DNA of 64,000 bases from NCBI GenBank assembly GCA_947172415.1, contig OX359199.1:6959884-7023883 (forward strand), read 5' to 3'. The position numbers were made by a program, and so were the translations under genes. The DNA comes from Chondrosia reniformis (Eukaryota; Porifera; Demospongiae; Chondrillida; Chondrillidae). Below the pieces are notes generated by a model, which worked only from the letters and a program-made list of their open reading frames with translations, was not told the DNA's origin and did no database searches. The first letter of the stretch is position 1; every line of letters starts with the position of its first letter. Positions 10,801 to 64,000 of the stretch are shown here, one piece after another.

Positions 10801-12811
10801 TGATGAAGCAGAAAGAGCTGTCAATATTCTCAAAGCCACTCATGACTCAAGATTGGTTGAAATGAGCACATTGCACAAGACCTCACAGACTGTAAGCACG
10901 GGGTCAAGGTAGAAATGGGCACTGTGCTGTGTATGCATGGATGTGTTAAATTTAATAATGTGAATATTTTAGGTTTTAGATTGTGTGAACAGTCTACGAA
11001 TACGTTACCTTCAAGCTCTTACAAAAAGTGAACTTGAGGAAGACCCTGAATCTTTAGGATTGGTCCATCCCACTCTCCCCAGCAATCCAAGCTTGTCCTC
11101 CAAAGATGCTCCCTTGCTGCCTCCACCTCCTCCGAATCACCCACCCACCGACAACATAGTGACCTCTCCTACTGGACTATTGGGAGCAGGAACTGGCACT
11201 TTCCAAAGGTCAAAGAGACCAAGCGACAGTAACCTTTTGAAGGATAAAGTTGTTGCCAAAGTTAGTATGATACCTACCCATACACTATGTTGTTGTTAGA
11301 GTTGTTGCATAACCAACCAATGTAAGGTATTCCACCATTTTGTATATTTGTGTATGTAATTTACCCTATCTCTCACCATACAATAAGATCGTATGTCAGA
11401 ATTTAATGTACATTTAGGGCTGTAACTCTATCAAATGGAAAGATGTGAAGCTAATACTTAGTGTCAGCATTGTCAAGTATCTATAAAAGCATACCCAATA
11501 AGTTTTAAAAATTTTGAAGCATGTTAATATTTGCCCTGTAGAGTATTATGGCTGACCTACCAGAGACCGAGCAGATTCAGCTATCAGAGGCATCCCTTAG
11601 CCTTAAGGAGAAGCATGCTGAGCTGGAGACACAAGCCAGTCAGTGGGGTGAGGATGGAGGAGAGAATGATCTTGTAGCGCTGGCCAAGGAGATGTGTATA
11701 ATGATGTTGGATATGTCAGATTTTACACAGTAAGTACCCTGGTGTGGGGTGGTAACACACACCTATCTCTCTTAGTTGCCACGATAACACACACTATCTC
11801 TTGGTTGCCATGGTAACACACACTATCTCTTGGTTGCCATGGTCCACAAGCACCTTTCTACTTACCCACCTACTGTTTCCCTAGAGGGGCGGGGCCTCTG
11901 CAAACTACTGCTGATGTCATAGTAACAGCCAAGGACATAGCCAGAGCTGGCGGACAGCTCAACGTTATTGCACAAGAAATAGCCAATGAAGTGAGTGCAA
12001 TAGCAACACTGTGGACTAATGTATGTACTATCAGTGTGAGCTAACATTGTACGTCTGTGTCATGTGTAGTGTCCTGATCAGAGTTGCAAGAGAGATATAT
12101 TGGCCTACCTGGATCAAGTGCAACTGTGTAGTCATCAGCTGAAGATTACCAGCGCTGTCAAAGCTGACCTCAATGCTTCGGTACGAGAGACAGTGGAAAG
12201 TGCCAGCGCTCTGATAATGGCAGCTAAGAACTTGATGACCTCTGTCGTGCTGCTGGTGAAGCTCTGCTACATTGCCTCTAGAGCTGTGAGTGTTCTAAGT
12301 AGTAGCTAAGAGAGGAGTGTAAGCCAACTTGTGTGCATGAGAGCGGATCAAGCTATAGATTGGTCATCACCTCTCTTGTACAATCTTCCCATTCATTCAT
12401 GATGTATGCCAGTGACTTAAAGATGTACCTACCATTGGCCTTAAAACATCATGTACATTGTGCTAATTTGGTTCACTGTTGAAGTGATAATTGTACATCT
12501 CTCTCTCTCTTTCTCCATAGATTGCTAAAGTGAAGGGAAGTTTGCCAGTAAGTTTGACATATTGGAATGTGTTAAGAAGTTCTAACTCTCTCCCCCCTAA
12601 TAACTCTTTACAGAGTGCATGGAGAAGATGGGAGATGAACACACCAAGGAAGAAGGACTTGGTTAGCATGGGTTCTAGTGTGGGCAGCCATTCTCCTAAA
12701 CAAGGAGAAAGGGCCACATTCAATCGAAATAATTCTACTCTTAATCCACTCAAAGAACTCTGTGAATTCAGGGGAACAGGAACAACAACAATACAATCAA
12801 CTTGTGTTTAA
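7894..12811 (+). CDS. CTNNA: Alpha-catenin
   Basis: Sixteen in-phase exons (from 7894-8013 and 8090-8440 to 12521-12547 and 12614-12811) encode about 965 residues, slightly longer than vertebrate alpha-catenins (~906). The protein links cadherin/beta-catenin to actin at adherens junctions. Recognisable segments are VTTLARHDPSVKRG and MIVAARALLTAITKLLVAADVAD (N-terminal vinculin-homology domain), LRHAMLDHVSDIF and VATLACSLSSDGQGVKL (middle domain), LAKEMCIMMLDMSDFTQG, CKRDILAYLDQV and ALIMAAKNLMTSVV (actin-binding C-terminal domain), ending in NPLKELCEF like the vertebrate NPVQALSEF tail. It is alpha-catenin rather than vinculin by these motifs. Oddities: a Pro-rich stretch (LLPPPPPNHPPT) in exon 11, a minisatellite starting at the exon-3 donor (8622), and a lone satellite monomer in the intron before exon 12. 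Confidence 0.93.
8600..8800. repeat. 22-bp G-rich minisatellite starting at an alpha-catenin splice donor
   Basis: Eight copies of a 22-bp unit (GTGGGGCACATAGAGTAGAG plus GG) with GTGGGG beginning at 8622, 8644, 8666, 8688, 8710, 8732, 8754 and 8776. The first GTGGGG is the intron donor after exon 3 (CAAGAG then GTGGGG). The array therefore repeats the exon-intron boundary. The unit contains an in-frame TAG right after the true exon end and is not a multiple of three, so use of later donors would truncate the protein. Confidence 0.92.
11359..11521 (+). repeat. Solitary copy of the 169-bp satellite monomer in an alpha-catenin intron
   Basis: This intronic stretch matches the satellite that fills 52.7-64 kb, in the same order and orientation: CCCTATCTCTCACCATACA, CAGAATTTAATGTACAT, CTGTAACTCTATCAAATGGA, GTGTCAGCATT and a T/A-rich end. 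It is about one monomer long. The CTGTAACTCTATCAAATGGAA form is shared with the diverged monomer at the edge of the 1-kb modules rather than with the main array. Confidence 0.88.
11735..11850. repeat. Short tandem repeat in alpha-catenin intron
   Basis: About three copies of a ~33-bp unit containing GTTGCCATGGTAACACACAC followed by TATCTCTTG lie between exons 12 and 13. The GTTGCCATGGTAAC core is palindromic (Rfx/X-box-like in appearance), but no functional claim is supported. Confidence 0.65.
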
Positions 12812-20294: not shown

Positions 20295-21841
20295 TTAGAT
20301 TGTGCCTACATCATCTCTTGTTTCTGAAATGCTCAGTTTAGTGGCCAAATCATGTAAGTGCTCCATATCATGTTCGTGTTTTTCCTGACGTTGATAGTAG
20401 ACCTGCAACATGTGTAGTATCTACGAGATCAAAGGAACATACAGAGTATTGTACAAGATATTAATACATGATTAGTTGATAGACAATTCTTCACCTCCAT
20501 CACTTTAGTCTTAAGCATGCTACTATTGCTTTCAAACTCTCCAACAATCTTCAGTCTTGAGTTTGCCAAGTTTATAGGATTCTTTCCAAAATTATTTTCT
20601 AGATTTAAATTGGTTCCTGCAAAATTATCACCAAAAGGGAAGATTGAATGTACATAGTTTGAATGGCCTAACTTACACATGCTCACCTGCTTTCAATAGC
20701 AATGTCACTATCTGAATATGACTGCTGCACACAGCTAAATCAATAGACAACATTACTCTGGAGAGACATCTGTAAATAAACCTTTTTATGTTTCATAAAC
20801 CCATATTGACTGCCATTCTGCATATGTAGCGCAACTGTTTTGTACATTTAAGTGTACACATATACCATCACCACCAGTCACTTACCTAAGTGAAGTGGTG
20901 TGTTGCCTAGGAAGTCCATACTGTTGACATCAGCTCCATTGCTTAATAGGAACTCCACTAACAGAAATATATGTAGGGATAGCACAAGTTGTGATATTGA
21001 TTAAGGGTGAGGGGGACAGGAGAGGGAGGGGAGAGGAGGTGAGGGGGACAGGAGAGGGAGGGGAGAGGAGGTGAGGGGACAGGAGAGGGAGGGGAGAGGA
21101 GGTGAGGGGGACAGGAGAGGGAGGGGGAGGAGGTGAGGGGACAGGAGAGGGAGGGGAGAGGAGGTGAGGGGACAGGAGAGGGAGGGGAGAGGAGGTGAGG
21201 GGGACAGGAGAGGGAGGGGAGAGGAGGTGAGGGGGACAGGAGAGGGAAGGAAGAGGAGGTGAGGGGGACAGGAGAGGGAGGGGACAGGAGAGGAGGTGAG
21301 GGGACAGGAGGGGAAGGGGGAGGAGGTGAGGGGACAGGAGAGGGAGGGGAGAGGAGGTGAGGGGGACAGGAGAGGGAAGGAAGAGGAGGTGAGGGGACAG
21401 GAGAGGAGGTGAGGGGAATCCTTACCCACGCAAAGTGTTAGCTTACCCAATTCACTACTCCCTGAGGTAACTGCAAAATGAAGCGCTGTTCTTCCTTTTC
21501 TGTCCGGAGCAGATATATCAACACCTTCTTGCATCAGTTGGTGTACTGCAAAGACATGAGGTACGATGTACCACTGCTCGAGGGTATAAATATTGTACAT
21601 ATAACTCACGTTTAGGAACGTCATTAGCAAGTACAGCCGTATGTAGGGCCTTCCTTTCTAGAACACAAACATGTTCGCGAATCTACCAAATAACTTACAA
21701 ATACAAAAACAGATTCCTACCAATATATTGCTTTCCTGTAAAGTCATCTAAAACGGTCTTGTGCATCCCGTGGATACCGACGAAATGCTTCTGTCGGTTG
21801 CTTTTTCTGGAGTTTGCCTTTCTAGTCCTGTTGGCAGCCAT
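20295..21841 (-). CDS. ANKRD54: Ankyrin repeat protein, ANKRD54-like
   Basis: The minus-strand gene starts at ATG 21841 (MAANRTRKANSRKSNRQKHF, strongly basic and nuclear-signal-like) and ends with TAA at 20295-20297. Ankyrin repeats are visible over successive exons: VHQLMQEGVDISAPDRKGRT then ALHFAVTSGSSEL; VEFLLSNGADVNSMDFLGNT then PLHL; IVTLLLKAGTNLNLENNFGK then NPINLANSRLKIV. The last matches ANKRD54, where the final repeat runs into LAKSKLNILQE. A C-terminal coiled segment (YYQRQEKHEHDMEHLHDLAT) matches the [20 protein letters not shown] region of that protein. ANKRD54 is a nucleocytoplasmic shuttling adaptor. The C-terminus is shorter than in vertebrates. One intron carries a 0.4-kb G-rich minisatellite. 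Confidence 0.82.
21005..21420. repeat. Purine-rich minisatellite in an ANKRD54 intron
   Basis: About ten imperfect repeats built from GAGGTGAGGGG, GACAGGAGAGG and GAGGGGAGAG blocks. The plus strand is almost pure purine for more than 400 bp, with only isolated C and T. The minus-strand open frame across it (Pro/Ser/Leu repeats) is a repeat artefact. G-runs of 3-5 spaced by a few bases fit G-quadruplex or triplex potential on the strand opposite to ANKRD54 transcription. Confidence 0.92.
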
Positions 21842-23898: not shown

Positions 23899-26800
23899 AT
23901 GGCGCAAGAAGCAACGCTTGTCTGGTGAGTATTTGTTGAACATATTACGATATCAGCCTATCATTGTGTGTTGATTATGAATTGTATGTTGGTTTAGGAA
24001 TTATTGTACCATTCTCTAAGTTAAGGCTGACTGTTTTTGTATCTTATGTAGCCTTGACAACAGCGATTGGATGCGAAACGGAGATTTCATCCCGACTAGG
24101 CTGGACTCGCAGACGGACGCTGTGAACCTGGTATGCAGATCCAAATTGAGACAGAATCCTGAAAACACTGTAGGAATAATGACCTTGGCCGAGTATGTCA
24201 TTTCTGGGGACACTGATGTGTTTAATTGTCATGCTACCCATTGTCCCTTTCCTCCAGTACCCAAGTGTTATCTACCCTCACTACTGACGTGAATAACGTG
24301 TTGAACAAGATGAGGCATGTTCAGCCGGAGGGTACAGTCAAGTTTCTTAGTGGCGTGCGAATAGCTCATGTACGTACGTATGTATGTACGTATGTATGTA
24401 CGTATGTATGTATGTTGGATGGTTGTTTGACATGTAGTTTGATTAGTATATAGTTCCATGTTTGTTGAATAAATTACGTAGATCTTTGCTACATTTTTGA
24501 GTACTAGTGTGAATACCAGCATAATTGGGGTTGTTACTCTAGAGGCAGAGAGTATCTCGTGTTCCAGATGACTTGATGATTCTTCTGTAAAGTGTTCATG
24601 TTCTGTTTTTGTTTAGCTTGTTTTGAAACATCGACAAAATAAATTGCAGAAAATGAGATTAATTATATTCATAGCCAGTCCCCTTGAAAACAGCAGTAAA
24701 GAGGTAAGCAAGAAGTTCACCACTCCTCTAGACATGCATTGCTATTCAATTAATAAATATTTAATGGATTTATCTTTAAACTTTACATGAAAAACTAAGT
24801 AAATTGATTTTTTATATCTTCAGTTGGAACAATTGGGAAAGAAGCTAAAGAAAGAGAAGGTAAACGTTGATGTGGTAGTCTTTGGTGAGCACGAACAAAA
24901 CGAACCTCTGTTGACTGGTTTCATTGAAGCACTCAATGGGAAGGAAGGGAAAAAGTTAGTTTGGTGACTGCAATATACGCCAATGGATGCAGATTTCTAT
25001 TAGCAGATGTTTATTCAAAGGGGTATTTGTCTCATTAGAGAGAGGCCTCTTTCCATTTGGTCATTTTTGACCTGGCATCAATGTTGAGCCCGGCTTCTAT
25101 AAATGTTTGTTTTGACATTTCTACTGCAGTAGAAACGTCACAATTAGTTACACTTCAACCCAGTATGTTGGTTTGCGAGAAACTTCCTTATTTAAGAATA
25201 GCCAAGCTGACCCTAGGCTCTACACACAGTACATATATAGTCAGTAATCTTGAGGAGAGCTATGACTAGAATATTTTTGTTTGTCTGCACCTGAAGTTCA
25301 CACCTAATAGCTATCCAACCCGGAGGTCCCATGTTGTCCGATGCCCTCTCCACGTCACCCATCTTGAGAGCTGAAGATGGTACCTCACTAGCACCGGCTG
25401 GATCAGGCTTTGAGTATGGAATTGATCCATCAGAAGATCCTGAACTAGCCATGGTAAGGGACTGTCTGTGTCCATCGGGAGGCAATAAGAGATTTAGTGT
25501 ATATTAGCAGCCATCAGAAATGCCCCCACTGCCACAGATATATAAATTTACATAGTTTTGATCATTTTCAGAATACTTGCATGCAGATATGGAAGTTGGT
25601 CAAGAGGTCACCTTTTAGTGGGTTGGTGAGAATGCCTTCACTAGAGTATCCTCTCATTGGAATTTGTACCATTCTGAATGCATTTTACAGCTGTTTCCTC
25701 CATATCTCAATCAAGCTGCATATTTGTACTTATAATCAGACATACACAGCTTGTTGACTTGACTTGCTACATGTGGTAACAATGTAATGTCATATAAGGC
25801 CTCATTGGTTAGATAACCTCATAACCCAAAGGGGATTGTTCATGATAAGGGTGAGACCCTAGGCTTGAAGGTCAAATGTTTCAATCCTGTGGATCTTCTT
25901 TAGTGACTGGTCACATGACTCAAGAAGAATCAACTGCATCTCCAAAATGCTCTTCAAGCCTAGGTTCCCATCCTTATCATCATTTGATGAAGACAGCCAT
26001 AGTTTACAACTTTGTATTATTATTAAATAACTTATTTAGCCTTTTCTGCAAAAGAATCATGATAGTGTAATGTCATATAAGCTGTTTCCATGACAACAGG
26101 CTATCCGTGTGTCACTAGAAGAACAGAGGCAGAGACAAGAGGACGAGGCAAAGAGGGTACAGGTCACTTCCTTGAGTGAAGGGCAGCCAGAGCCGGTGGG
26201 GATGGACGTTGGGGAGTCAACCCTGGCCTCAGCCCTGGGACAGTCCCTCCCAACAGCTGAAGTGGTGGCTGCTACAGATGGACCTCCAGTTAGTAGGAAT
26301 TTATTTACTTTGACCTTGAAACCTTGGAACAGAGGGCAGCATTTTGTAGATTTCATCATATAGTGTATCTGTCCTGAGAAACTACATACGTATTTAGTAC
26401 AGCAATGTCGTGCAGTATTGTCCTGACCTACGTATCTATAAAAGGGTGTTTTATCTTAAGTTTGTTATTTACAGATCATAAGTGCTTTATTTACAGATCA
26501 TAAGTGTTATATTTATGGATCATTAGGATTTCTCAGCTATGACAGAGGAGGAGCAGATGGCTTATGCCATCCAAATGTCTATGCAGGGAGGTGAAGATCA
26601 AGGTAAGTCTAAAGAGATGACACAACTTGTCCTTTTCTGCTGATAATGAAACAGGTCAGATTGTGTACATATTCCCATTCCCATTCCCATTCCCATTTGT
26701 AATAGGAATGGAAATGGAAGAGGGTGAATCTACACAGGAGAGGGAAAGCAGTGGTAAGTACATACGTAGGTCAGGAAAGAGTTGCATTTCTTGTCTTTGT

Positions 26801-30720: not shown

Positions 30721-32606
30721 AAAACTAGGTAAATTGATTTTTTTGTATATCTTCAGTTGGGAAAGAAGCTAAAGAAAGAGAAGGTAAATGTTGATGTGTT
30801 AGTCTTTGGTGATCAAAATGAACCTCTGTTGACTGGTTGCATTGAAGCACTCAATGGAAAAGAAGGGGAAAAGTAAGGAATTCCTTGCAATTGGTTACTC
30901 TGTATTCTGGGAAAGAGGCCATGGTTAGTTAGACAACAGATTTCTAAACTGTATATTACTTGAGACTTTTATGTTCCTTTGAAAATTCCAAGATATGATA
31001 AGCATTATTATTTAGGAAAGAAGCAAAAGAAAGAGAAGGTAAATGTTAATGTGTTAGTCTTTGGTAATCAAAACAAACCTCTGTTGACTGGTTTCATTGA
31101 AGCACTCAATGGAAAAGAAGGGAAAAGTAAGGAATTCATTGGTTACTCTGTATTCTGGGAAAGAGGCCATGGTTAGACAATAGATTTCTAAACTACTTCC
31201 TAGAACATTACTGTGGTAGGACTGGATGGGAGTAGAGGCAGTATGCATCTTGACCCAGTGTGTTGGTTTGAGAGATCCCATTTCTATATAAGAATAGCCT
31301 AACTGACCCCAATTCTATCCAACCCGGAGGTCCCATGTTGTCCGATGCCCTCTCCACGTCACCCATCTTGAGAGCTGAAGATGGTACCTCACTAGCACCG
31401 GCTGGATCAGGCTTTGAGTATGGAATTGATCCATCAGAAGATCCTGAACTAGCCATGGTAAGGGACTGTCTGTGTCCATCGGGAGGCAATAAGAGATTTA
31501 GTGTATATTAGCAGCCATCAGAAATGCCCCCACTGCCACAGATGTATAAATTTACATAGTTTTGATCATTTTCAGAATACTTGCATGCAGATATGGAAGT
31601 TGGTCAAGAGGTCACCTTTTAGTGGGTTGGTGAGAATGCCTTCACTAGAGTATCCTCTCATTGGAATTTGTACCATTCTGAATGCATTTTACAGCTGTTT
31701 CCTTCATATCTCAATCAAGCTGTATATTTGTACTTATAATCAGACATACACAGCTTGTTGACTTGACTTGCTACATGTGGTAACAATGTAATGTCATATA
31801 CATAAGCTGTTTCCATGACAACAGGCTATCCGTGTGTCACTAGAAGAACAGAGGCAGAGACAAGAGGACGAGGCAAAGAGGGTACAGGTCACTTCCTTGA
31901 GTGAAGGGCAGCCAGAGCCGGTGGGGATGGACATTGAGGAGTAGATTTGTAGATTTCATCATATAGTGTATCTGTCCTGAGAAACTACATATTTAGTACA
32001 GCAATGTCATGCAGTATTGTCCTGACCTATATATCTATAAAGTATATTTTCTTAAGTTTGTTATTTATGGATCATAAGTGCTTTATTTACAGATCATTAG
32101 TGTTATATTTATGGATCATTAGGATTTCTCAGCTATGACAGAGGAGGAGCAGATGGCTTATGCCATCCAAATGTCTATGCAGGGAGGTGAAGATCAAGGT
32201 AAGTCTAAAGAGATGACGTATACTTGTCCTTTTCTGCTGATAATGAAACAGGTCAGATTGTGTACATATTCCCATTCCCATTCCCATTCCCATTTGTAAT
32301 TGGAATGGAAATGGAAAAGGGTGAATCTACACAGGAGAGGGAAAGCAGTGGTAAGTACATACTAAGTTTAATCATTTTGTTGTCAAATCCTGAGAAACTA
32401 TTTAACCTGTTGTAACTTTCCTAGTTGAAGCAGACATGGATGAGTTGTTACAAGATAAAGATTTTCTACAAAGCACGTTTGCAGCATTGCCAGGAGTGAA
32501 CCCAGACGAGGTGTTACAAATGATGCAAGAAGAACAAGACCAGCAGATGGAAGGAAATGATGACGACGAAAGCAAGAAGAACAAGGACGTGCAGAAGGGC
32601 AAATAG
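30720..32606 (+). pseudogene. Truncated duplicate of PSMD4 (3' half only)
   Basis: This repeats PSMD4 from the intron before the [12 protein letters not shown] exon to the stop (TAG at 32604-32606). The first exons encoding most of the VWA domain are missing. The [13 protein letters not shown] exon is present twice (about 30760 and 31014, offset ~254 bp), each followed by a stop or shift instead of a proper donor. The UIM1 exon ends prematurely: VGMDIEE then TAG (31941-31943), with the remainder of that exon deleted. The UIM2 exon and the last exon ([20 protein letters not shown]) are almost unchanged. It lacks the SINE-like insertion of the parent. A spliced RNA could exist but no normal Rpn10 can be made. 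Confidence 0.9.
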
Positions 32607-52564: not shown

Positions 52565-52684
52565 AAACTACAAATAAATACAACTGATCATAAACACTTA
52601 CAAATAAATACAACTGATCATAAACACTTATAAATAAATACAACTGATCATAAACACTAACAAATAAATACAGCTGATCATAAA
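52565..52684. repeat. 30-bp tandem repeat downstream of the receptor stop
   Basis: Four copies of a 30-bp unit, ACAAATAAATACAACTGATC plus ATAAACACTT, with small changes. Each unit contains AATAAA, so the array offers several polyadenylation signals about 130-240 bp after the receptor stop. It directly precedes the satellite domain. Confidence 0.85.
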
Positions 52685-52815
52685 ATTTGCCCTATCTCTC
52701 ACCATACATTAACTTTGTATACCAGAATTTAATGTACATTGAGGGCTGTCACTCTATCAAATGGAGGTAGAGATATGAAGCTAAATCTTTGTGTAAGCAT
52801 TCACAGACATCTAAT
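52685..52815 (+). repeat. First (border) satellite monomer
   Basis: A monomer of the 169-bp satellite that ends abruptly in the module at about 52816. It carries the border form GAGGGCTGTCACTCTATC and AAATGGAGGTAGAGATATG (4 extra bases, GTAG), seen also at the left edge of the other two modules (57053-57128, 62791-62866). Confidence 0.88.
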
Positions 52816-53845
52816 TAAAACCGGCCTAGTTGAAATATCGATCATAGACATTAATATCGTACAGGCGATAAATATCGGACCTCGCACAATCTCTAGTTTT
52901 CTGTATCATGAAAAGTCGCTCTCCTCCCTCCACCAAGACACAAAATGGCTTTTATACATTTGCCACAGTTTTGAGATGTATTGAAAATACTGCGTGTGTG
53001 CGTAAAATTACTTGGAACCATTCACTGGTCTGGAAATAAAGTGGAATAAATTGACGATTTCTCGAAAATAATTGGGATCAGAAAAGTCGTTCTCCTCGGC
53101 CCATCAAGACACTTACAGGATTTATTCGCTTTTCCCAGTTTTCAGGTGAACCACTAATACTGCCTATGTCTTTAAACTTGCTTGAAACAATTCACTGATC
53201 TGGAAATAACGAGAAATACATAAAAAAAGTCCCAACCACAACCGTTTTCTTTGGACAAAACTTCATATAAATAGAAGCGAAAAACCTTATATAGTAGGCC
53301 TACCTGGACACATCTCTATGGTGGTTGCGGTTCCCATAGAGGTTGGTAGCGCTTAGACTCTGAAGCTGTCTCCTAATCGGTTGGTGCCATAGAGACGTGC
53401 TCACCAATAATCCGGATTTCGGGGGGGTTCCACGTAATGTGGGATTGGCATCTGATATCTTAGGATTCATATGAGTCGGCCATATCGAGAAGAACTGGTT
53501 CTTCTCACGCAAGTGACACCCAAAGCTCAACTCGGCAGAGCGTTACCACCGATCCCGGCCTATGAGCGTCGTGGATGGTAGCGTTCGGTATGGTCCAACT
53601 TTTTTTCTTTGGAGTTTCGTTGGCTGTCGATTGACGAAATTTCACTTTAACGAGATCCATATAAAAATATACTTTCCAATTTTTATACATAGGGATATGC
53701 ACTGTGTAGTAGTTGATTGTTATTGAAGTACTATCGATCTATATATTTCTAGATTTTCAGATATAGCATGGAATTTTGTCTTTATTATATACCTTCTAAT
53801 GGTCGGCCATATATAGTATTACGCAATTTTCTCTAACAAAACAGT
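52816..53845. repeat. Satellite-associated 1.03-kb module, copy 1
   Basis: Non-satellite sequence inserted at the same point of a monomer in all three copies. It has two diverged ~171-bp tandem halves starting GAAAAGTCGCTCTCCTC (52910) and GAAAAGTCGTTCTCCTC (53081), a tRNA-Gln-like stretch (53329-53390), a perfect 9-bp-arm palindrome (53487-53506), a T7 run (53600-53606) and an AT-rich end. Minus-strand open frames of 65 and 76 codons are conserved only because the copies are near identical; no family match. The first copy differs from the others by a few bases at its left edge. Confidence 0.9.
53329..53390 (+). other. tRNA-Gln-like segment within the module
   Basis: GGTTCCCATAGAGGTTGG and GTAGCGCTTAGACTCTGAAG follow the order of a eukaryotic tRNA-Gln (GGTCCCATGG..., ...GGTTAGCACTCTGGACTCTG) including the CTCTGAA anticodon loop. 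The acceptor end and T-arm do not pair well, so it is at best a tRNA-derived relic or SINE head. The same sequence is at about 57642-57703 and 63380-63441. Confidence 0.4.
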
Positions 53846-56800
53846 ACATTAACTGTAGTTCTGTAACTCTATCAAATGGAAATATATGAAGCTGTGACTT
53901 GGTGTCAATATTCACAGATATTTATTAAGCATGATCAATGAGTTTTTGAAATTTTGATGAAACTTAAAATTTGCTCTATATCTCACCATACATTAACTTT
54001 GTATACAAGAATTTTAAGTACATTGAGGGATGTCACTCTATCAAATGGAGAGATATGAAGCTAAATCTTTGTGTCAGCATTCACAGACATCTATAGAACA
54101 TGTCTAATAGGTTTTTGAAATTTTGATGAAACAAAATTTGCTCTATCTCTCACTATACATTAACTTTGTATACCAGAATTTAATGTACATTGAGGGATGT
54201 CACTCTATCAAATGGAGAGATATGAAACTAAATCTTTGTGTCAGCATTCACAGGCCACTATGGAACATGTACAACGGGTTTTTAAAATTTTAATGAAATA
54301 TAAAATTTGCCCTATCTCTCACCATACATTAACTTTGTATGCAAGAATTTTAAGTACATTGAGGAATGTCATTCTATCAAATGGAGAGATATGAAGCTAA
54401 ATCTTTGTGTCAGCATTCACAGACATCTATGGAACATGTCTAATGGGTTTTTGAAATTTTGATGAAACTTAAAATTTGCCCTATCTCTCACAATACATTA
54501 ATTTTGTATAACAGAATTTTAAGTACATTGAGGGATGTCACTCTATCAAATGGAGAGATATGAAGCTTAATCTTTGTGTCAGCATTCACAGACCTCTATG
54601 GAACATGTACAATGGGTTTTTGAAATTTTGATGAAACTTAAAATTTGCTCTATCTCTCACTATACATTAACTTTGTATAACAGAATTTAATGTACATTGA
54701 GGGATGTCACTCTATCAAATGGGGAGATATGAAGCTAAATCTTTGTGTCAGCATTAACAGATTACTATGGAACATGTACAATGGGTTTTTGAAATTTTGA
54801 TGAAACTTAAAATTTGCTCTATCTCTCACAATACATTAACTTTGTATACAAGAATTTTAAGTACATTGAAGGCCGTCACTCTATCAAATGGAGAGATATG
54901 AAGCTTAATCTTTGTGTCAGCATTCACAGACATCTATGGAACATGTCTAATGGGTTTTTGAAATTTTGATGAAACTTAAAATTTGCCCTATCTCTCACAA
55001 TACATTAACTTTGTATAACAGAATTTTAAGTACATTGAGGGATGTCACTCTATCAAATGGAGAGATATGAAGCTTAATCTTTGTGTCAGCATTCACAGAC
55101 CTCTATGGAACATGTACAATGGGTTTTTGAAATTTTGATGAAACTTAAAATTTGCCCTATCTCTCACAATACATTAACTTTGTATAACAGAATTTTCAGT
55201 ACATTGAGGGATGTCACTCTATCAAATGGAGAGATATGAAGCTTAATCTTTGTGTCAGCATTAACAGACCTCTATGGAACATGTACAATGGGTTTTTGAA
55301 ATTTTGATGAAACTTAAAATTTGCCTTATCTCTCACAATACATTAACTTTGTATAACAGAATTTTAAGTACATTGAGGGATGTCACTCTATCAAATGGAG
55401 AGATATGAAGCTTAATCTTTGTGTCAGCATTAACAGACCTCTATGGAACATGTACAATGGGTTTTTGAAATTTTGATGAAACTTAAAATTTGCTCTATCT
55501 CTCACTATACATTAACTTTGTATAACAGAATTTTAAGTACATTGAGGGATGTCACTCTATCAAATGTAGAGATATGAAACTAACTCTTTGTGTCAGCATT
55601 CACAGGCCACTATGGAACATGTACAACGGGTTTTTAAAATTTTAATGAAATATAAAATTTGCCCTATCTCTCACAATACATAAACTTTATATACAAGAAT
55701 TTTAAGTACATTGAGGGATGTCACTCTATCAAATGGAGAGATATGAAGCTTAATCTTTGTGTCAGCTTTCACAGACATCTATAGAACATGTACAATGGGT
55801 TTTTGAAATTTTGATGAAACAAAATTTGCCCTATCTCTCACAATACATTAACTTTGTATACAAGAATTTTAAGTACATTGAGGAATGTCATTCTATCAAA
55901 TGGAGAGATATGAAGCTAAATCTTTGTGTCAGCATTCATAGACATCTATAGAACATGTCTAATGGGTTTTTGAAATTTTGATGAAACAAAATTTGCCCTA
56001 TCTCTCACAATACATTAACTTTGTATACCAGAATTTTAAGTACATTGAGGAATGTCATTCTATCAAATGGAGAGATATGAAGCTAAATCTTTGTGTCAGC
56101 ATTCATAGACCACTATGGAACATGTACAATGGGTTTTTGAAATTTTGATGAAACAAAATTTGCCCTATCTCTCACAATACATTAACTTTGTATACCAGAA
56201 TTTTAAGTACATTGAGGAATGTCATTCTATCAAATGGAGAGATATGAAGCTAAATCTTTGTGTCAGCATTCATAGACCACTATGGAACATGTACAATGGG
56301 TTTTTGAAATTTTGATGAAACTTAAAATTTGCTCTATCTCTCACTATACATTAACTTTGTATACCAGAATTTAATGTACATTGAGGGATGTCACTCTATG
56401 AAATGGAGAGATATGAAGCTTAATCTTTGTGTCAGCATTCACAGACATCTATGGAACATGTCTAATGGGTTTTTGAAATTTTGATGAAACTTAAAATTTG
56501 CCCTATCTCTCACAATACATTAACTTTGTATAACAGAATTTTAAGTACATTGAGGGATGTCACTCTATCAAATGGAGAGATATGAAGCTTAATCTTTGTG
56601 TCAGCATTCACAGACCTCTATGGAACATGTCTAATGGGTTTTTAAAAATTTTGATGAAACTTAAAATTTGCCCTATCTCTCACAATACATTAACTTTGTA
56701 TAACAGAATTTTAAGTACATTGAGGGATGTCACTCTATCAAATGGAGAGATATGAAGCTTAATCTTTGTGTCAGCATTAACAGACCTCTATGGAACATGT

Positions 56801-57052
56801 ACAATGGGTTTTTGAAATTTTGATGAAACTTAAAATTTGCTCTATCTCTCACTATACATTAACTTTGTATACCAGAATTTAATGTACATTGAGGGATGTC
56901 ACTCTATCAAATGGAGAGATATGAAGCTTAATCTTTGTGTCAGCATTCACAGACCACTATGGAACATGTACAACGGGTTTTTGAAATTTTGATGAAACTT
57001 TTGTCCTATCTCTCACCATACATTAACTTTGTATACCAGAATTTAATGTACA
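53846..57052 (+). repeat. 169-bp satellite array, block 1
   Basis: About 19 head-to-tail monomers, mostly 165-171 bp (measured spacing 54471 to 54640 = 169). Consensus landmarks in order: CTATCTCTCACAATACATTA, ACTTTGTATAACAGAATTTT, AGTACATTGAGGGATGTCAC, TCTATCAAATGGAGAGATAT, GAAGCTTAATCTTTGTGTCA, GCATTCACAGAC, TATGGAACATGTACAATGGG and TTTTTGAAATTTTGATGAAA. The first monomer (next to module 1) is the most diverged. Variants include a short form (ATGAAACAAAATTTG) and a GGCCACTATGG form (54250, 55605). Confidence 0.95.
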
Positions 57053-57128
57053 TTGAGGGCTGTCACTCTATCAAATGGAGGTAGAGATATGAAGCTAAAT
57101 CTTTGTGTAAACATTCACAGACACCTAA

Positions 57129-58388
57129 TAAAACCGACCTAGTTGAAATATCGATCATAGACATTAATATCGTACAGGCGATAAATATCGGACCTCGCAC
57201 AATCTCTAGTTTTCTGTATCATGAAAAGTCGCTCTCCTCCCTCCACCAAGACACAAAATGGCTTTTATACATTTGCCACAGTTTTGAGATGTATTGAAAA
57301 TACTGCGTGTGTGCGTAAAATTACTTGGAACCATTCACTGGTCTGGAAATAAAGTGGAATAAATTGACGATTTCTCGAAAATAATTGGGATCAGAAAAGT
57401 CGTTCTCCTCGGCCCATCAAGACACTTACAGGATTTATTCGCTTTTCCCAGTTTTCAGGTGAACCACTAATACTGCCTATGTCTTTAAACTTGCTTGAAA
57501 CAATTCACTGATCTGGAAATAACGAGAAATACATAAAAAAAGTCCCAACCACAACCGTTTTCTTTGGACAAAACTTCATATAAATAGAAGCGAAAAACCT
57601 TATATAGTAGGCCTACCTGGACACATCTCTATGGTGGTTGCGGTTCCCATAGAGGTTGGTAGCGCTTAGACTCTGAAGCTGTCTCCTAATCGGTTGGTGC
57701 CATAGAGACGTGCTCACCAATAATCCGGATTTCGGGGGGGTTCCACGTAATGTGGGATTGGCATCTGATATCTTAGGATTCATATGAGTCGGCCATATCG
57801 AGAAGAACTGGTTCTTCTCACGCAAGTGACACCCAAAGCTCAACTCGGCAGAGCGTTACCACCGATCCCGGCCTATGAGCGTCGTGGATGGTAGCGTTCG
57901 GTATGGTCCAACTTTTTTTCTTTGGAGTTTCGTTGGCTGTCGATTGACGAAATTTCACTTTAACGAGATCCATATAAAAATATACTTTCCAATTTTTATA
58001 CATAGGGATATGCACTGTGTAGTAGTTGATTGTTATTGAAGTACTATCGATCTATATATTTCTAGATTTTCAGATATAGCATGGAATTTTGTCTTTATTA
58101 TATACCTTCTAATGGTCGGCCATATATGACTGATGATGATAAACTATTTGCCATTCTGGATCAAGGATGCAAGCATCACTCAATCCTTAAGATTATTTTG
58201 AAGATGTGGACTGCTAGATTTAGTTGACCTTTTTGATTGATGACTTGATGTTTTCTTGAACTGATTTATTTGTCATGATGTATTGGTGTGTGCCTCATAG
58301 GACAGTCTGTCCTAGTGCTATGCATGTGGCACGTTAAATAAAATAATAATAATAATAATAATATAGTATTACGCAATTTTCTCTAACA
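57129..58388. repeat. Satellite-associated module, copy 2, with insertion
   Basis: Same sequence as copy 1, offset 4313 bp, and as far as I can read essentially identical. It is interrupted at 58128-58360 by a 233-bp element. The left edge reads ACACCTAATAAAACCGACC, as in copy 3, so copies 2 and 3 are the closest relatives. Confidence 0.92.
58124..58364 (+). mobile_element. SINE/LINE-3'-end-like insertion in module copy 2
   Basis: The 233-bp element (58128-58360) is present only in copy 2. Copies 1 and 3 show the uninterrupted site GGCCATATATAGTATTACG. It is flanked by a 4-bp ATAT direct repeat and ends in GCATGTGGCACGTTAAATAA followed by an (AAT)n tail, the same kind of 3' end as the element in the COMMD1 intron. 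No ORF. Confidence 0.75.
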
Positions 58389-61300
58389 AAACAGTACATT
58401 AACTGTAGTTCTGTAACTCTATCAAATGGAAATATATGAAGCTGTGACTTGGTGTCAATATTCACAGACATTTATTAAGCATGATCAATGAGTTTTTGAA
58501 ATTTTGATGAAACTTAAAATTTGCCCTATCTCTCACAATACATTAACTTTGTATAACAGAATTTTAAGTACATTGAGGGATGTCACTCTATCAAATGGAG
58601 AGATATGAAGCTTAATCTTTGTGTCAGCATTCACAGACCTCTATGGAACATGTCTAATGGGTTTTTGAAATTTTGATGAAACTTAAAATTTGCCCTATCT
58701 CTCACAATACATTAACTTTGTATACCAGAATTTTAAGTACATTGAGGGATGTCACTCTATCAAATGGAGAGATATGAAGCTTAATCTTTGTGTCAGCATT
58801 CACAGACCTCTATGGAACATGTACAATGGGTTTCTAAAATTTTGATGAAACTTAAAATTTGCCCTATCTCTCACAATACATTAACTTTGTATAACAGAAT
58901 TTTAAGTACATTGAGGGATGTTACTCTATCAAATGTAGAGATATGAAGCTTAATCTTTGTGTCAGCATTCACAGACATCTATGGAACATGTCTAATGGGT
59001 TTTTGAAATTTTGATGAAACTTAAAATTTGCCCTATCTCTCACAATACATTAACTTTGTATAACAGAATTTTAAGTACATTGAGGGATGTCACTCTATCA
59101 AATGGAGAGATATGAAGCTTAATCTTTGTGTCAGCATTAACAGACCTCTATGGAACATGTACAATGGGTTTTTGAAATTTTGATGAAACTTAAAATTTGC
59201 TCAATCTCTCACTATACATTAACTTTGTATAACAGAATTTTAAGTACATTGAGGGATGTCACTCTATCAAATGGAGAGATATGAAGCTTAATCTTTGTGT
59301 CAGCATTCACAGACATCTATGGAACATGTCTAATGGGTTTTTGAAATTTTGATGAAACTTAAAATTTGCTCTATCTCTCACTATACATTAACTTTGTATA
59401 ACAGAATTTTAAGTACATTGAGGGATGTCACTCTATCAAATGGAGAGATATGAAGCTTAATCTTTGTGTCAGCATTAACAGACCTCTATGGAACATGTAC
59501 AATGGGTTTTTGAAATTTTGATGAAACTTAAAATTTGCTCTATCTCTCACTATACATTAACTTTGTATAACAGAATTTTAAGTACATTGAGGGATGTCAT
59601 TCTATCAAATGGAGAGATATGAAGCTAAATCTTTGTGTCAGCATTCATAGACCACTATGGAACATGTACAATGGGTTTTTGAAATTTTGATGAAACTTAA
59701 AATTTGCCCTATCTCTCACTATACATTAACTTTGTATAACAGAATTTTAAGTACATTGAGGGATGTCACTCTATCAAATGGGGAGATATGAAGCTAAATC
59801 TTTGTGTCAGCATTAACAGATTACTATGGAACATGTACAATGGGTTTTTGAAATTTTGATGAAACTTAAAATTTGCTCTATCTCTCACAATACATTAACT
59901 TTGTATAACAGAATTTTAAGTACATTGAGGGATGTCACTCTATCAAATGTAGAGATATGAAACTTAATCTTTGTGTCAGCATTCACAGACATCTATGGAA
60001 CATGTCTAATGGGTTTTTGAAATTTTGATGAAACTTAAAATTTGCCCTATCTCTCACCATACATTAACTTTGTAAAACAGAATTTTAAGTACATTGAGGG
60101 ATGTCACTCTATCAAATGGAGAGATATGAAGCTTAATCTTTGTGTCAGCATTAACAGACCTCTATGGAACATGTACAATGGGTTTTTGAAATTTTGATGA
60201 AACTTAAAATTTGCTCTATCTCTCACTATACATTAACTTTGTATAACAGAATTTTAAGTACATTGAGGGATGTCACTCTATCAAATGGAGAGATATGAAG
60301 CTTAATCTTTGTGTCAGCATTAACAGACCTCTATGGAACATGTACAATGGGTTTTTGAAATTTTGATGAAACTTAAAATTTGCTCTATCTCTCACTATAC
60401 ATTAACTTTGTATAACAGAATTTTAAGTACATTGAGGGATGTCACTCTATCAAATGGAGAGATATGAAGCTTAATCTTTGTGTCAGCATTAACAGACCTC
60501 TATGGAACATGTACAATGGGTTTTTGAAATTTTGATGAAACTTAAAATTTGCTCTATCTCTCACTATACATTAACTTTGTATAACAGAATTTTAAGTACA
60601 TTGAGGGATGTCACTCTATCAAATGGAGAGATATGAAGCTTAATCTTTGTGTCAGCATTCACAGACCTCTATGGAACATGTACAATGGGTTTTTGAAATT
60701 TTGATGAAACTTAAAATTTGCCTTATCTCTCACAATACATTAACTTTGTATAACAGAATTTTAAGTACATTGAGGGATGTCACTCTATCAAATGGAGAGA
60801 TATGAAGCTAAATCTTTGTGTCAGCATTCACAGACATCTATGGAACATGTACAACTGGTTTTTTAAATTTTGATGAAACAAAATTTGCCCTATCTCTCAC
60901 AATACATTAACTTTGTATACAAGAATTTTAAGTACATTGAAGGCCGTCACTCTATCAAATGGAGAGATATGAAGCTTAATCTTTGTGTCAGCATTCACAG
61001 ACATCTATGGAACATGTCTAATGGGTTTTTGAAATTTTGATGAAACTTAAAATTTGCCCTATCTCTCACAATACATTAACTTTGTATACAAGAATTTTAA
61101 GTACATTGAAGGCCGTCACTCTATCAAATGGAGAGATATGAAGCTTAATCTTTGTGTCAGCATTCACAGACATCTATGGAACATGTACAATGGGTTTTTT
61201 TGAAATTTTGATGAAACTTAAAATTTGCCTTATCTCTCACAATACATTAACTTTGTATAACAGAATTTTAAGTACATTGAGGGATGTCACTCTATCAAAT

Positions 61301-62790
61301 GGAGAGATATGAAGCTTAATCTTTGTGTCAGCATTCACAGACCTCTATGGAACATGTACAATGGGTTTTTGAAATTTTGATGAAACTTAAAATTTGCTCT
61401 ATCTCTCACTATACATTAACTTTGTATAACAGAATTTTAAGTACATTGAGGGATGTCACTCTATCAAATGGAGAGATATGAAGCTAAATCTTTGTGTCAG
61501 CATTCACAGACATCTATGGAACATGTACAACTGGTTTTTTAAATTTTGATGAAACAAAATTTGCCCTATCTCTCACAATACATTAACTTTGTATACAAGA
61601 ATTTTAAGTACATTGAAGGCCGTCACTCTATCAAATGGAGAGATATGAAGCTTAATCTTTGTGTCAGCATTCACAGACATCTATGGAACATGTCTAATGG
61701 GTTTTTGAAATTTTGATGAAACTTAAAATTTGCCCTATCTCTCACAATACATTAACTTTGTATACAAGAATTTTAAGTACATTGAAGGCCGTCACTCTAT
61801 CAAATGGAGAGATATGAAGCTTAATCTTTGTGTCAGCATTCACAGACATCTATGGAACATGTACAATGGGTTTTTGAAATTTTGATGAAACTTAAAATTT
61901 GCCTTATCTCTCACAATACATTAACTTTGTATTACAGAATTTTAAGTACATTGAGGGATGTCACTCTATCAAATGGAGAGATATGAAGCTTAATCTTTGT
62001 GTCAGCATTCACAGACCTCTATGGAACATGTACAATGGGTTTTTGAAATTTTGATGAAACTTAAAATTTGCTCTATCTCTCACTATACATTAACTTTGTA
62101 TACCAGAATTTAATGTACATTGAGGGATGTCACTCTATGAAATGGGGAGATATGAAGTTTAATCTTTGTGTCAGCATTCACAGACATCTATGGAACATGT
62201 CTAATGGGTTTTTGAAATTTTGATGAAACTTAAAATTTGCCCTATCTCTCACCATACATTAACTTTGTATAACAGAATTTTAAGTACATTGAGGGATGTC
62301 ACTCTATCAAATGGAGAGATATGAAGCTTAATCTTTGTGTCAGCATTCACAGGCCACTATGGAACATGTACAACGGGTTTTTAAAATTTTAATGAAATAT
62401 AAAATTTGCCCTATCTCTCACAATACATAAACTTTATATACAAGAATTTTAAGTACATTGAGGGATGTCACTCTATCAAATGGAGAGATATGAAGCTTAA
62501 TCTTTGTGTCAGCATTCACAGACCTCTATGGAACATGTACAATGGGTTTTTGAAATTTTGATGAAACTTAAAATTTGCTCTATCTCTCACTATACATTAA
62601 CTTTGTATACCAGAATTTAATGTACATTGAGGGATGTCACTCTATCAAATGGAGAGATATGAAGCTTAATCTTTGTGTCAGCATTCACAGACCACTATGG
62701 AACATGTACAACGGGTTTTTGAAATTTTGATGAAACTTTTGTCCTATCTCTCACCATACATTAACTTTGTATACCAGAATTTAATGTACA
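58389..62790 (+). repeat. 169-bp satellite array, block 2
   Basis: About 26 further monomers in the same orientation as block 1. Higher-order structure is visible: an ACAACTGGTTTTTT variant at 60851 recurs at 61527 (676 bp, four monomers) together with its AAGGCCGTCAC neighbours. A GGCCACTATGG / ACATAAACTTTATATACAAG pair near 62350 repeats that at 55605. The monomers are AT-rich with phased A/T runs. Confidence 0.95.
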
Positions 62791-64000
62791 TTGAGGGCTG
62801 TCACTCTATCAAATGGAGGTAGAGATATGAAGCTAAATCTTTGTGTAAACATTCACAGACACCTAATAAAACCGACCTAGTTGAAATATCGATCATAGAC
62901 ATTAATATCGTACAGGCGATAAATATCGGACCTCGCACAATCTCTAGTTTTCTGTATCATGAAAAGTCGCTCTCCTCCCTCCACCAAGACACAAAATGGC
63001 TTTTATACATTTGCCACAGTTTTGAGATGTATTGAAAATACTGCGTGTGTGCGTAAAATTACTTGGAACCATTCACTGGTCTGGAAATAAAGTGGAATAA
63101 ATTGACGATTTCTCGAAAATAATTGGGATCAGAAAAGTCGTTCTCCTCGGCCCATCAAGACACTTACAGGATTTATTCGCTTTTCCCAGTTTTCAGGTGA
63201 ACCACTAATACTGCCTATGTCTTTAAACTTGCTTGAAACAATTCACTGATCTGGAAATAACGAGAAATACATAAAAAAAGTCCCAACCACAACCGTTTTC
63301 TTTGGACAAAACTTCATATAAATAGAAGCGAAAAACCTTATATAGTAGGCCTACCTGGACACATCTCTATGGTGGTTGCGGTTCCCATAGAGGTTGGTAG
63401 CGCTTAGACTCTGAAGCTGTCTCCTAATCGGTTGGTGCCATAGAGACGTGCTCACCAATAATCCGGATTTCGGGGGGGTTCCACGTAATGTGGGATTGGC
63501 ATCTGATATCTTAGGATTCATATGAGTCGGCCATATCGAGAAGAACTGGTTCTTCTCACGCAAGTGACACCCAAAGCTCAACTCGGCAGAGCGTTACCAC
63601 CGATCCCGGCCTATGAGCGTCGTGGATGGTAGCGTTCGGTATGGTCCAACTTTTTTTCTTTGGAGTTTCGTTGGCTGTCGATTGACGAAATTTCACTTTA
63701 ACGAGATCCATATAAAAATATACTTTCCAATTTTTATACATAGGGATATGCACTGTGTAGTAGTTGATTGTTATTGAAGTACTATCGATCTATATATTTC
63801 TAGATTTTCAGATATAGCATGGAATTTTGTCTTTATTATATACCTTCTAATGGTCGGCCATATATAGTATTACGCAATTTTCTCTAACAAAACAGTACAT
63901 TAACTGTAGTTCTGTAACTCTATCAAATGGAAATATATGAAGCTGTGACTTGGTGTCAATATTCACAGACATTTATTAAGCATGATCAATGAGTTTTTGA
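62791..64000. repeat. Border monomer, module copy 3 and next array start
   Basis: The border monomer (62791-62866) is followed by module copy 3 (about 62867-63892, offset 5738 bp from copy 2) without the 233-bp insertion. The diverged right-edge monomer follows, and the window ends inside it. The satellite domain therefore continues beyond the window. Confidence 0.92.

Follow-up and report, generated by a model that had tools for sequence, protein, structure and literature searches.

The question raised by this locus is what a long array of ~169-bp monomers, interrupted at intervals by near-identical modules of about 1 kb, represents in the genome of the sponge Chondrosia reniformis. The first-pass annotation of the window (C11:6959884-7023883, the whole stretch of 64,000 nucleotides that was analysed, from whose first letter positions are counted below unless a contig is named) read the array as a propagating compound unit made of a satellite and a conserved spacer, and thought of a centromeric or subtelomeric location or of a mobile element that bears tandem repeats. 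The genome that we searched totals 117,379,552 bp in 15 contigs; the published assembly is described in the text of its genome paper as 14 chromosomes and a mitochondrial genome of together 117.37 Mb, and the strings 'satellite' and 'centromer' each have 0 occurrences in that paper's main text (PMC12181767). The element is not described in the titles or abstracts of the literature searched, and the accessible portion of PMC11482795 contains nothing on sponges.

The compound array and its modules

The array occupies 52681-64000 on the forward strand; its left edge falls at 52681-52685 and its right edge lies outside the window, with monomers extending ~0.5 kb further, to C11 ~7024398. TRF placed an array with a period of 169 bp at 53862-62860 (53.3 copies, 83% matches, score 10813), a span that includes the second module, and a BLAST search of the window with one monomer as query recovered 45 full-length monomers (at least 150 bp, identity 85.9-100%) and 7 partial matches, two of which make up an isolated fragment that lies apart from the array, at 11358-11471. 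The head-to-tail repeat of which the first-pass annotation had counted more than 45 monomers is thereby confirmed. The three near-identical modules that it described are also present: modules 1 (1041 bp, 52830-53870) and 3 (62881-63921) are identical at 1041 of 1041 bp, and module 2 (57143-58420) departs from both by a single 237-bp insertion at 58127-58363, which bears an (AAT)n-like tail. All three lie on the forward strand at start-to-start distances of 4313 and 5738 bp, exactly as first given, and each begins after monomer position 58-63, in agreement with the earlier remark that they share one position in the monomer. They are linked by forward-strand 169-bp monomers at 53862-57122 (modules 1 and 2) and 58412-62860 (modules 2 and 3).

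Module 1 contains two further features: 1) a ~172-bp repeat in two diverged copies (74%) on the forward strand at 52905-53209, which lies 5' of the candidate promoter discussed below and is possibly a distal regulatory region; 2) an 80-bp segment at 53669-53748, given without strand, whose orientation in the window modules is opposite to that in the copies at other loci. The window also encodes proteins, including an Exo84-like and an Arf-like one.

The near-invariant block, its flanking islands and the candidate RNA

An alignment of 31 copies, the 3 of the window and 28 from elsewhere, set apart one block of the module in which the mean pairwise difference is 0 to ~0.7% per 50 columns; the 5' part of the module differs by ~1-6% and the right-hand monomers by ~7-18%. 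Twenty further sites on C1 and C2, chosen by exact matches to segments of the block, contributed 17 more copies (n=48), the other three (L071, L080 and L085) not being alignable over the block in one piece. Good matches are over-represented among these 48, as 28 of them came from whole-module similarity and 17 from exact gene-segment matches; the genome-wide counts of 871 and 270 given below are free of that selection. Over the 48 copies conservation begins at ~53293 and ends at a T-run at 53600, which delimits a putative ncRNA gene body at 53293-53599 (~307 bp, forward strand) in module 1. It contains two common polymorphisms, namely TA inserted after 53461 (13 copies) and A replaced by C at 53562 (18 copies), together with a few rare changes. 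There are 15 haplotypes, the commonest of which accounts for 18 of the 48 copies; with the indels found in some copies, gene lengths range from 302 to 328. The second and third copies in the window, gene body and T-run together, are located on the forward strand at 57606-57919 and 63344-63657, and a 351-bp query of the block aligns with them at full length and self-hit score (C11:7017461-7017811 and C11:7023199-7023549).

The DNA upstream of the block is conserved in two islands: AACCACAA..GTTT, near -62, and a TATA box near -29. In copy 1 the first is a candidate PSE, AACCACAACCGTTTTCT, at 53232-53248 (57545-57561 and 63283-63299 in copies 2 and 3), and the second a candidate TATA box at 53266-53274, all on the forward strand; the core pattern of the PSE occurs in 48 of 48 copies. 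A comparison with RNA genes of the same genome showed that: 1) At -66 the RNase P RNA gene carries AACCACAACTATTTCCT, which agrees with the element of the block, at -62, in 14 of 17 positions, a level reached by 1 of 103,966 positions in window 1-52000 on both strands. 2) The distance from the start of this element to that of ATAAATA is exactly 33 bp in the RNase P gene and in the block alike, and the two also agree in the offset of a TATATA further on. 3) The five strong U2 genes carry a similar element at -56 to -58, with 12-14 of 17 positions shared (the genome has one more, weak U2 copy, and the comparison covers the upstream DNA of the five strong ones). 4) The U6 and MRP genes have no clear match to the PSE, the best reaching 10 of 17. 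At the opposite end of the block the T-run (T7 at 53600-53606 on the forward strand in copy 1), a Pol III-type terminator by sequence, sits exactly where conservation stops, and at least four T were matched in 47 of the 48 copies.

SNAPc-dependent Pol III genes are known to be laid out with a PSE, a TATA box and a T-run terminator, and the succession of conserved, variable and conserved segments within 70 bp fits promoter function. The available part of PMC4287351 describes typical Pol III signals in the RNase P RNA gene of a sponge. As judged from these signals the block is most likely a Pol III type-3 (snRNA-type) gene, whose promoter class and limits the sequence supports well, with a predicted transcript start at ~53296 in copy 1. 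The strand of the RNA is assigned from the promoter and the T-run and not from its fold.

We then asked which RNA this might be. Rfam gave no match in the array (E<=5) or in the whole window (gathering cut-offs), and a search with the block by itself (E<=10) turned up nothing beyond a chance match to mir-981, at 15.1 bits against a cut-off of 51. Several candidates were rejected: RNase P, MRP, SRP, U6 and U2 RNA, to none of which the block has an Rfam match and for which above-cut-off genes were located elsewhere in the genome (one locus each for RNase P, MRP and SRP); tRNA, of which ARAGORN detected none; a protein-coding sequence, the block having no long ORF; and telomerase RNA, six CCCTAA/CCTAA-type 7-mers being absent from both strands under the assumption of a TTAGGG-type template, which may not be the sponge's. 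An exact 30-mer of the gene had 0 matches in IMG/VR contigs and 0 in GTDB contigs.

A special case of the type-3 gene would be the sponge 7SK RNA, diverged beyond recognition by Rfam and amplified in this lineage. Both the length class and the promoter type are right for 7SK, and the Rfam 7SK model found none elsewhere in the genome, in a search whose control also matched in no genome. Against this, the block does not match that model even at E<=10, hundreds of copies would be odd for 7SK, and the gene has one GATC only, as opposed to the repeated GAUC motif of the HEXIM site (the HEXIM contact in 7SK is given as a GAUC stem in the accessible text of PMC8406779). We regard this identification as unlikely.

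The predicted fold of the block is only mildly better than that of shuffled sequences (z -1.7, and -1.4 in another run), and its reverse strand folds slightly better (z -2.0, and -2.2 in another run), so that the sequence proves neither a structured RNA nor, by itself, its strand. Among RNAs of the same genome the corresponding values are -1.6 for MRP, -1.3 for U6, -4.4 for RNase P, -4.6 for SRP and -5.5 for U2. A closing stem joining the ends of the RNA, which costs ~7 kcal/mol when forced, is not claimed. Pairing of the RNA with the monomer was likewise dropped, as the antisense similarity is weak (shuffles were as good in 39 of 1000 trials for the window monomer and 83 of 500 for the monomer of another array) and duplex energies are no better than those of shuffles; on the same strand, shuffles did as well in 460 of 1000 and 464 of 500 trials.

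Genome-wide distribution and probable exchange among copies

A 50-mer of the gene has 871 matches in the genome at up to 3 mismatches (432 forward and 439 reverse; reversed-pattern control 0), a number that counts 50-mer matches and not complete genes, and a 50-mer directly past the T-run has 270 (117 and 153; control 0). Most of the 871 are probably exact, since this is true of 100 out of 100 among the matches listed, which cover C1 and part of C2, and the matches of the downstream 50-mer are ordered by mismatches. A 158-mer of the gene recurs in 458 exact copies; the module query found full-length counterparts, 90-100% identical, in at least 40 places on ten contigs; and the 351-bp query reached its self-hit score over all 351 bp in 33 of its best 40 places, on seven contigs, with the remaining 7 one score step lower. 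The repeat is hence not limited to this locus, copies being found on many contigs, and in view of the 871 matches the first-pass notion of a propagating compound unit, a satellite with a conserved element, was right.

These copies are organized in small groups. The 100 listed matches form 32 clusters (gaps below 15 kb), the last of which is possibly incomplete, with a median step of 3.6 kb, a single orientation in 30 of the 32 and runs of equal steps such as 2466/2466 and 3195/3195. C1 has at least 24 clusters among the matches listed, in the ranges 0.07-1.88 Mb and 5.7-10.3 Mb of its 10.4 Mb. When the exact occurrences of the downstream 50-mer were grouped genome-wide (gaps below 50 kb; 86 of 87 matches used), 27 of 36 clusters fell in the outer chromosome quarters (binomial p 0.004). 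A centromeric or pericentromeric higher-order satellite, as proposed earlier, would account for a monomer length close to 170 bp and for the local higher-order homogenisation seen in the equal steps, but one main site per chromosome would be expected of it in place of many small dispersed clusters, and the bias towards outer quarters and the protein genes in the same window also speak against it; we consider a centromere highly improbable. The term subtelomeric does not hold as such either, the clusters listed for C1 also occupying the range 5.7-10.3 Mb on this 10.4-Mb contig. The satellite has more the look of spacer DNA belonging to an RNA gene in many copies than that of a centromere. This reverses the first-pass view of the module as a conserved spacer: the module appears to carry the gene, and the monomers behave as its spacer.

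The module could also be the core of a foldback- or Helentron-like element, a non-autonomous transposon that has tandem repeats in its interior. Copies on many contigs are in line with this, and so is locus L040, where monomers and module end are inverted to the left of the core and direct to its right, in resemblance to a foldback element. However, no constant terminus was found among the 10 ends of 6 arrays inspected, which lie at varied monomer phase; monomers have the same orientation on both flanks of most of the type A copies fetched (see below); and the regions best spared from change are the promoter islands and the gene. We accordingly assign a transposon a low probability.

The 48 copies fall into two context types, A (n=42) and B (n=6), the latter having a different upstream region and monomers that run opposite to the gene in four cases (L072, L081, L082 and L084), in mixed directions in L078 and in the same direction in L086. 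On average, A and B differ by 62% in the upstream region, by 10% in the PSE and 11% in the TATA box, by 49% in the spacer separating these two and by 20% in the one that follows the TATA box; the gene differs by 1.1%, the T-run by 7% and the DNA beyond it by 11%. Three lines of evidence point to exchange across these contexts: 1) the gene difference between A and B (1.1%) is like that within type A (1.2%); 2) the 307-bp haplotype of L082, of type B, recurs unchanged in five copies of type A, of which two belong to a single array; 3) all four combinations of the two common polymorphisms are present in type A. Exchange between copies of different contexts is thus very likely, and selection probably acts alongside it, because the promoter islands are spared whereas the spacers between them are not. 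Such selection would be compatible with use of the RNA by the host or with the unit's own spread.

The latter prospect corresponds to a selfish composite that arose by uptake of a Pol III gene into a satellite, or by invasion of a satellite by a Pol III element, and that spreads without benefit to the host, for example by extrachromosomal circles or conversion. The high copy number, the scattered arrays with inspected ends at varied phase and the differing satellite contexts and orientations would all suit such a unit, as would the broken copies among the C1 and C2 sites (L071, L080 and L085). On C1, 3 of 18 exact downstream matches (~5.678, 7.875 and 9.245 Mb) lie more than 1 kb from any exact gene 50-mer, which suggests that some copies have lost or altered the gene. 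Nevertheless, a purely passive passenger should decay along with its spacer, and a uniform gene with promoter islands kept in diverged contexts needs continual selection or conversion. A selfish origin is therefore a real but minor possibility, and we lean towards a host function.

Taken together, the copy number, the islands of conservation, the promoter match to RNase P and U2, the T-run and the sharing of haplotypes across spacer types support the reading that each module carries a SNAPc/PSE-type Pol III gene for a ~305-nt RNA and that the array belongs to a multi-copy gene family with satellite spacers. We consider this reading probable; the 7SK and selfish readings overlap with it, and the likelihoods attached to the three do not add up to a whole. 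Counting against a gene are the lack of an Rfam family, the mild fold, the absence of a clear PSE from U6 and MRP, the broken copies and the biased sample; counting against the type-3 class in particular, hundreds of copies are odd, RNase P, MRP and SRP being single loci here. In the model that we favor, a PSE, a TATA box, a ~305-nt RNA and a T-run terminator would make up the module, the gene would be present in roughly 870 places (50-mer matches) in small scattered tandem clusters, and 169-bp satellite subrepeats in variable number would form the intergenic spacer. Pol III would transcribe the block, unequal crossover in the satellite spacers would alter copy number, conversion together with selection on the RNA would maintain the uniformity of the gene, and high copy number would translate into a high dose of RNA. 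Such a system would most likely work as 5S rDNA or snRNA arrays do, with many copies supplying an abundant structural RNA.

Comparison with known RNA genes and repeats

To our knowledge, only a small number of type-3 Pol III RNAs have been described, most of them low-copy. If the gene reading is true, the small genome of this sponge contains hundreds of gene copies for a new abundant RNA of an early-branching animal, and offers a clean case in which the gene, the promoter islands and the spacer of a single repeat evolve at measurably different rates, by which selection and gene conversion become separable. It would also mean that satellite arrays masked as junk can conceal genes. A broader proposal, which we put forward only tentatively from the sequence comparisons, is that the block represents an undescribed class of animal snRNA-type Pol III RNA, kept near-invariant across hundreds of scattered copies by gene-limited exchange between satellite arrays, with the satellite family serving both as spacer and as spreading vehicle of an essential or selfish gene.

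In its PSE near -60, its TATA box near -30, its T-run and its non-coding nature the block resembles the type-3 (SNAPc/PSE) genes for U6, 7SK, RNase P RNA and MRP RNA, and it shares its promoter, including the 33-bp step from PSE to TATA box, with the RNase P RNA gene of the same genome. Unlike the known type-3 genes, its RNA is in no Rfam family, and in contrast to RNase P, MRP and SRP, each at one locus here, its 50-mer is found in 871 places.

Foldback and Helentron-type elements carry internal tandem repeats, and the tandem monomers around a core, with one inverted arrangement (L040), are reminiscent of them; the sponge unit differs in the absence of constant termini from the inspected ends and in that its conserved unit is a promoter with a gene. 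Human snaR RNAs are Alu-derived. A candidate Pol III ncRNA in multi-gene clusters, as predicted here from sequence, has a parallel in snaR-A, which the available text of PMC9151912 presents as a human Pol III ncRNA in gene clusters; the snaR clusters are on chromosome 19, whereas the sponge gene occurs genome-wide in hundreds of places behind a PSE/TATA promoter.

There is also a likeness to tandem 5S rRNA or snRNA gene arrays, in which near-identical genes are separated by repetitive, diverging spacers. The sponge unit departs from these in its external promoter, its many dispersed small clusters and its ~169-bp satellite spacer, but it has in common with them near-identical genes set among diverging spacers and, as we infer, a copy number that changes by unequal exchange.

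Orientation and surroundings of the putative gene

In module 1 of the satellite array, an 80-bp segment lying 3' of the putative ncRNA gene (53669-53748) has its orientation flipped relative to the copies at other loci in which this segment could be aligned, and the equivalent segments of modules 2 and 3 are inverted likewise. At another locus of the same genome (L040:3971-5749), the satellite monomers and the module end to the left of the core lie in inverted orientation, forming a foldback-like arrangement. The six copies with the type B context (L072, L078, L081, L082, L084 and L086) have a different upstream region and the same gene body; relative to the gene, their monomers run in the opposite direction in 4 of the 6, in mixed directions in L078 and in the same direction in L086.

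Genomic distribution and comparison with U6 and MRP genes

Among the matches listed for contig C1, none of the 66 exact matches to the gene 50-mer falls in a 3.8-Mb interior stretch (1876598-5685768), and contig C2 is also devoid of exact 158-mers from ~2.27 to 7.50 Mb among the matches listed. The proximal sequence element common to U2, RNase P and the gene block had no clear match in the regions upstream of the U6 and MRP genes (L065 and L088). A second, weaker U6 match (C8:5459986-5460088, L066; 52 bits vs 119 for the main gene) is probably a pseudogene.

Repeats and insertions in the window

A minisatellite with a 30-bp unit (52569-52684, 3.9 copies) adjoins the left end of the array, and a lone piece of satellite monomer lies distant from it at 11358-11471. 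Elsewhere, a G-rich minisatellite comprises 13 copies of a 32-bp unit (21006-21417). Two small repeats, one of 22 bp and one of ATTCCC, stand together at 26465-26697 and again 5.6 kb away at 32062-32294, which suggests a local duplication. Of the three window modules, only module 2 carries a 237-bp insertion (58127-58363), whose target site is TATA-rich DNA and which has (AAT)n-like repeats at its end; by its appearance, it looks like a short insertion of the non-LTR/SINE type.
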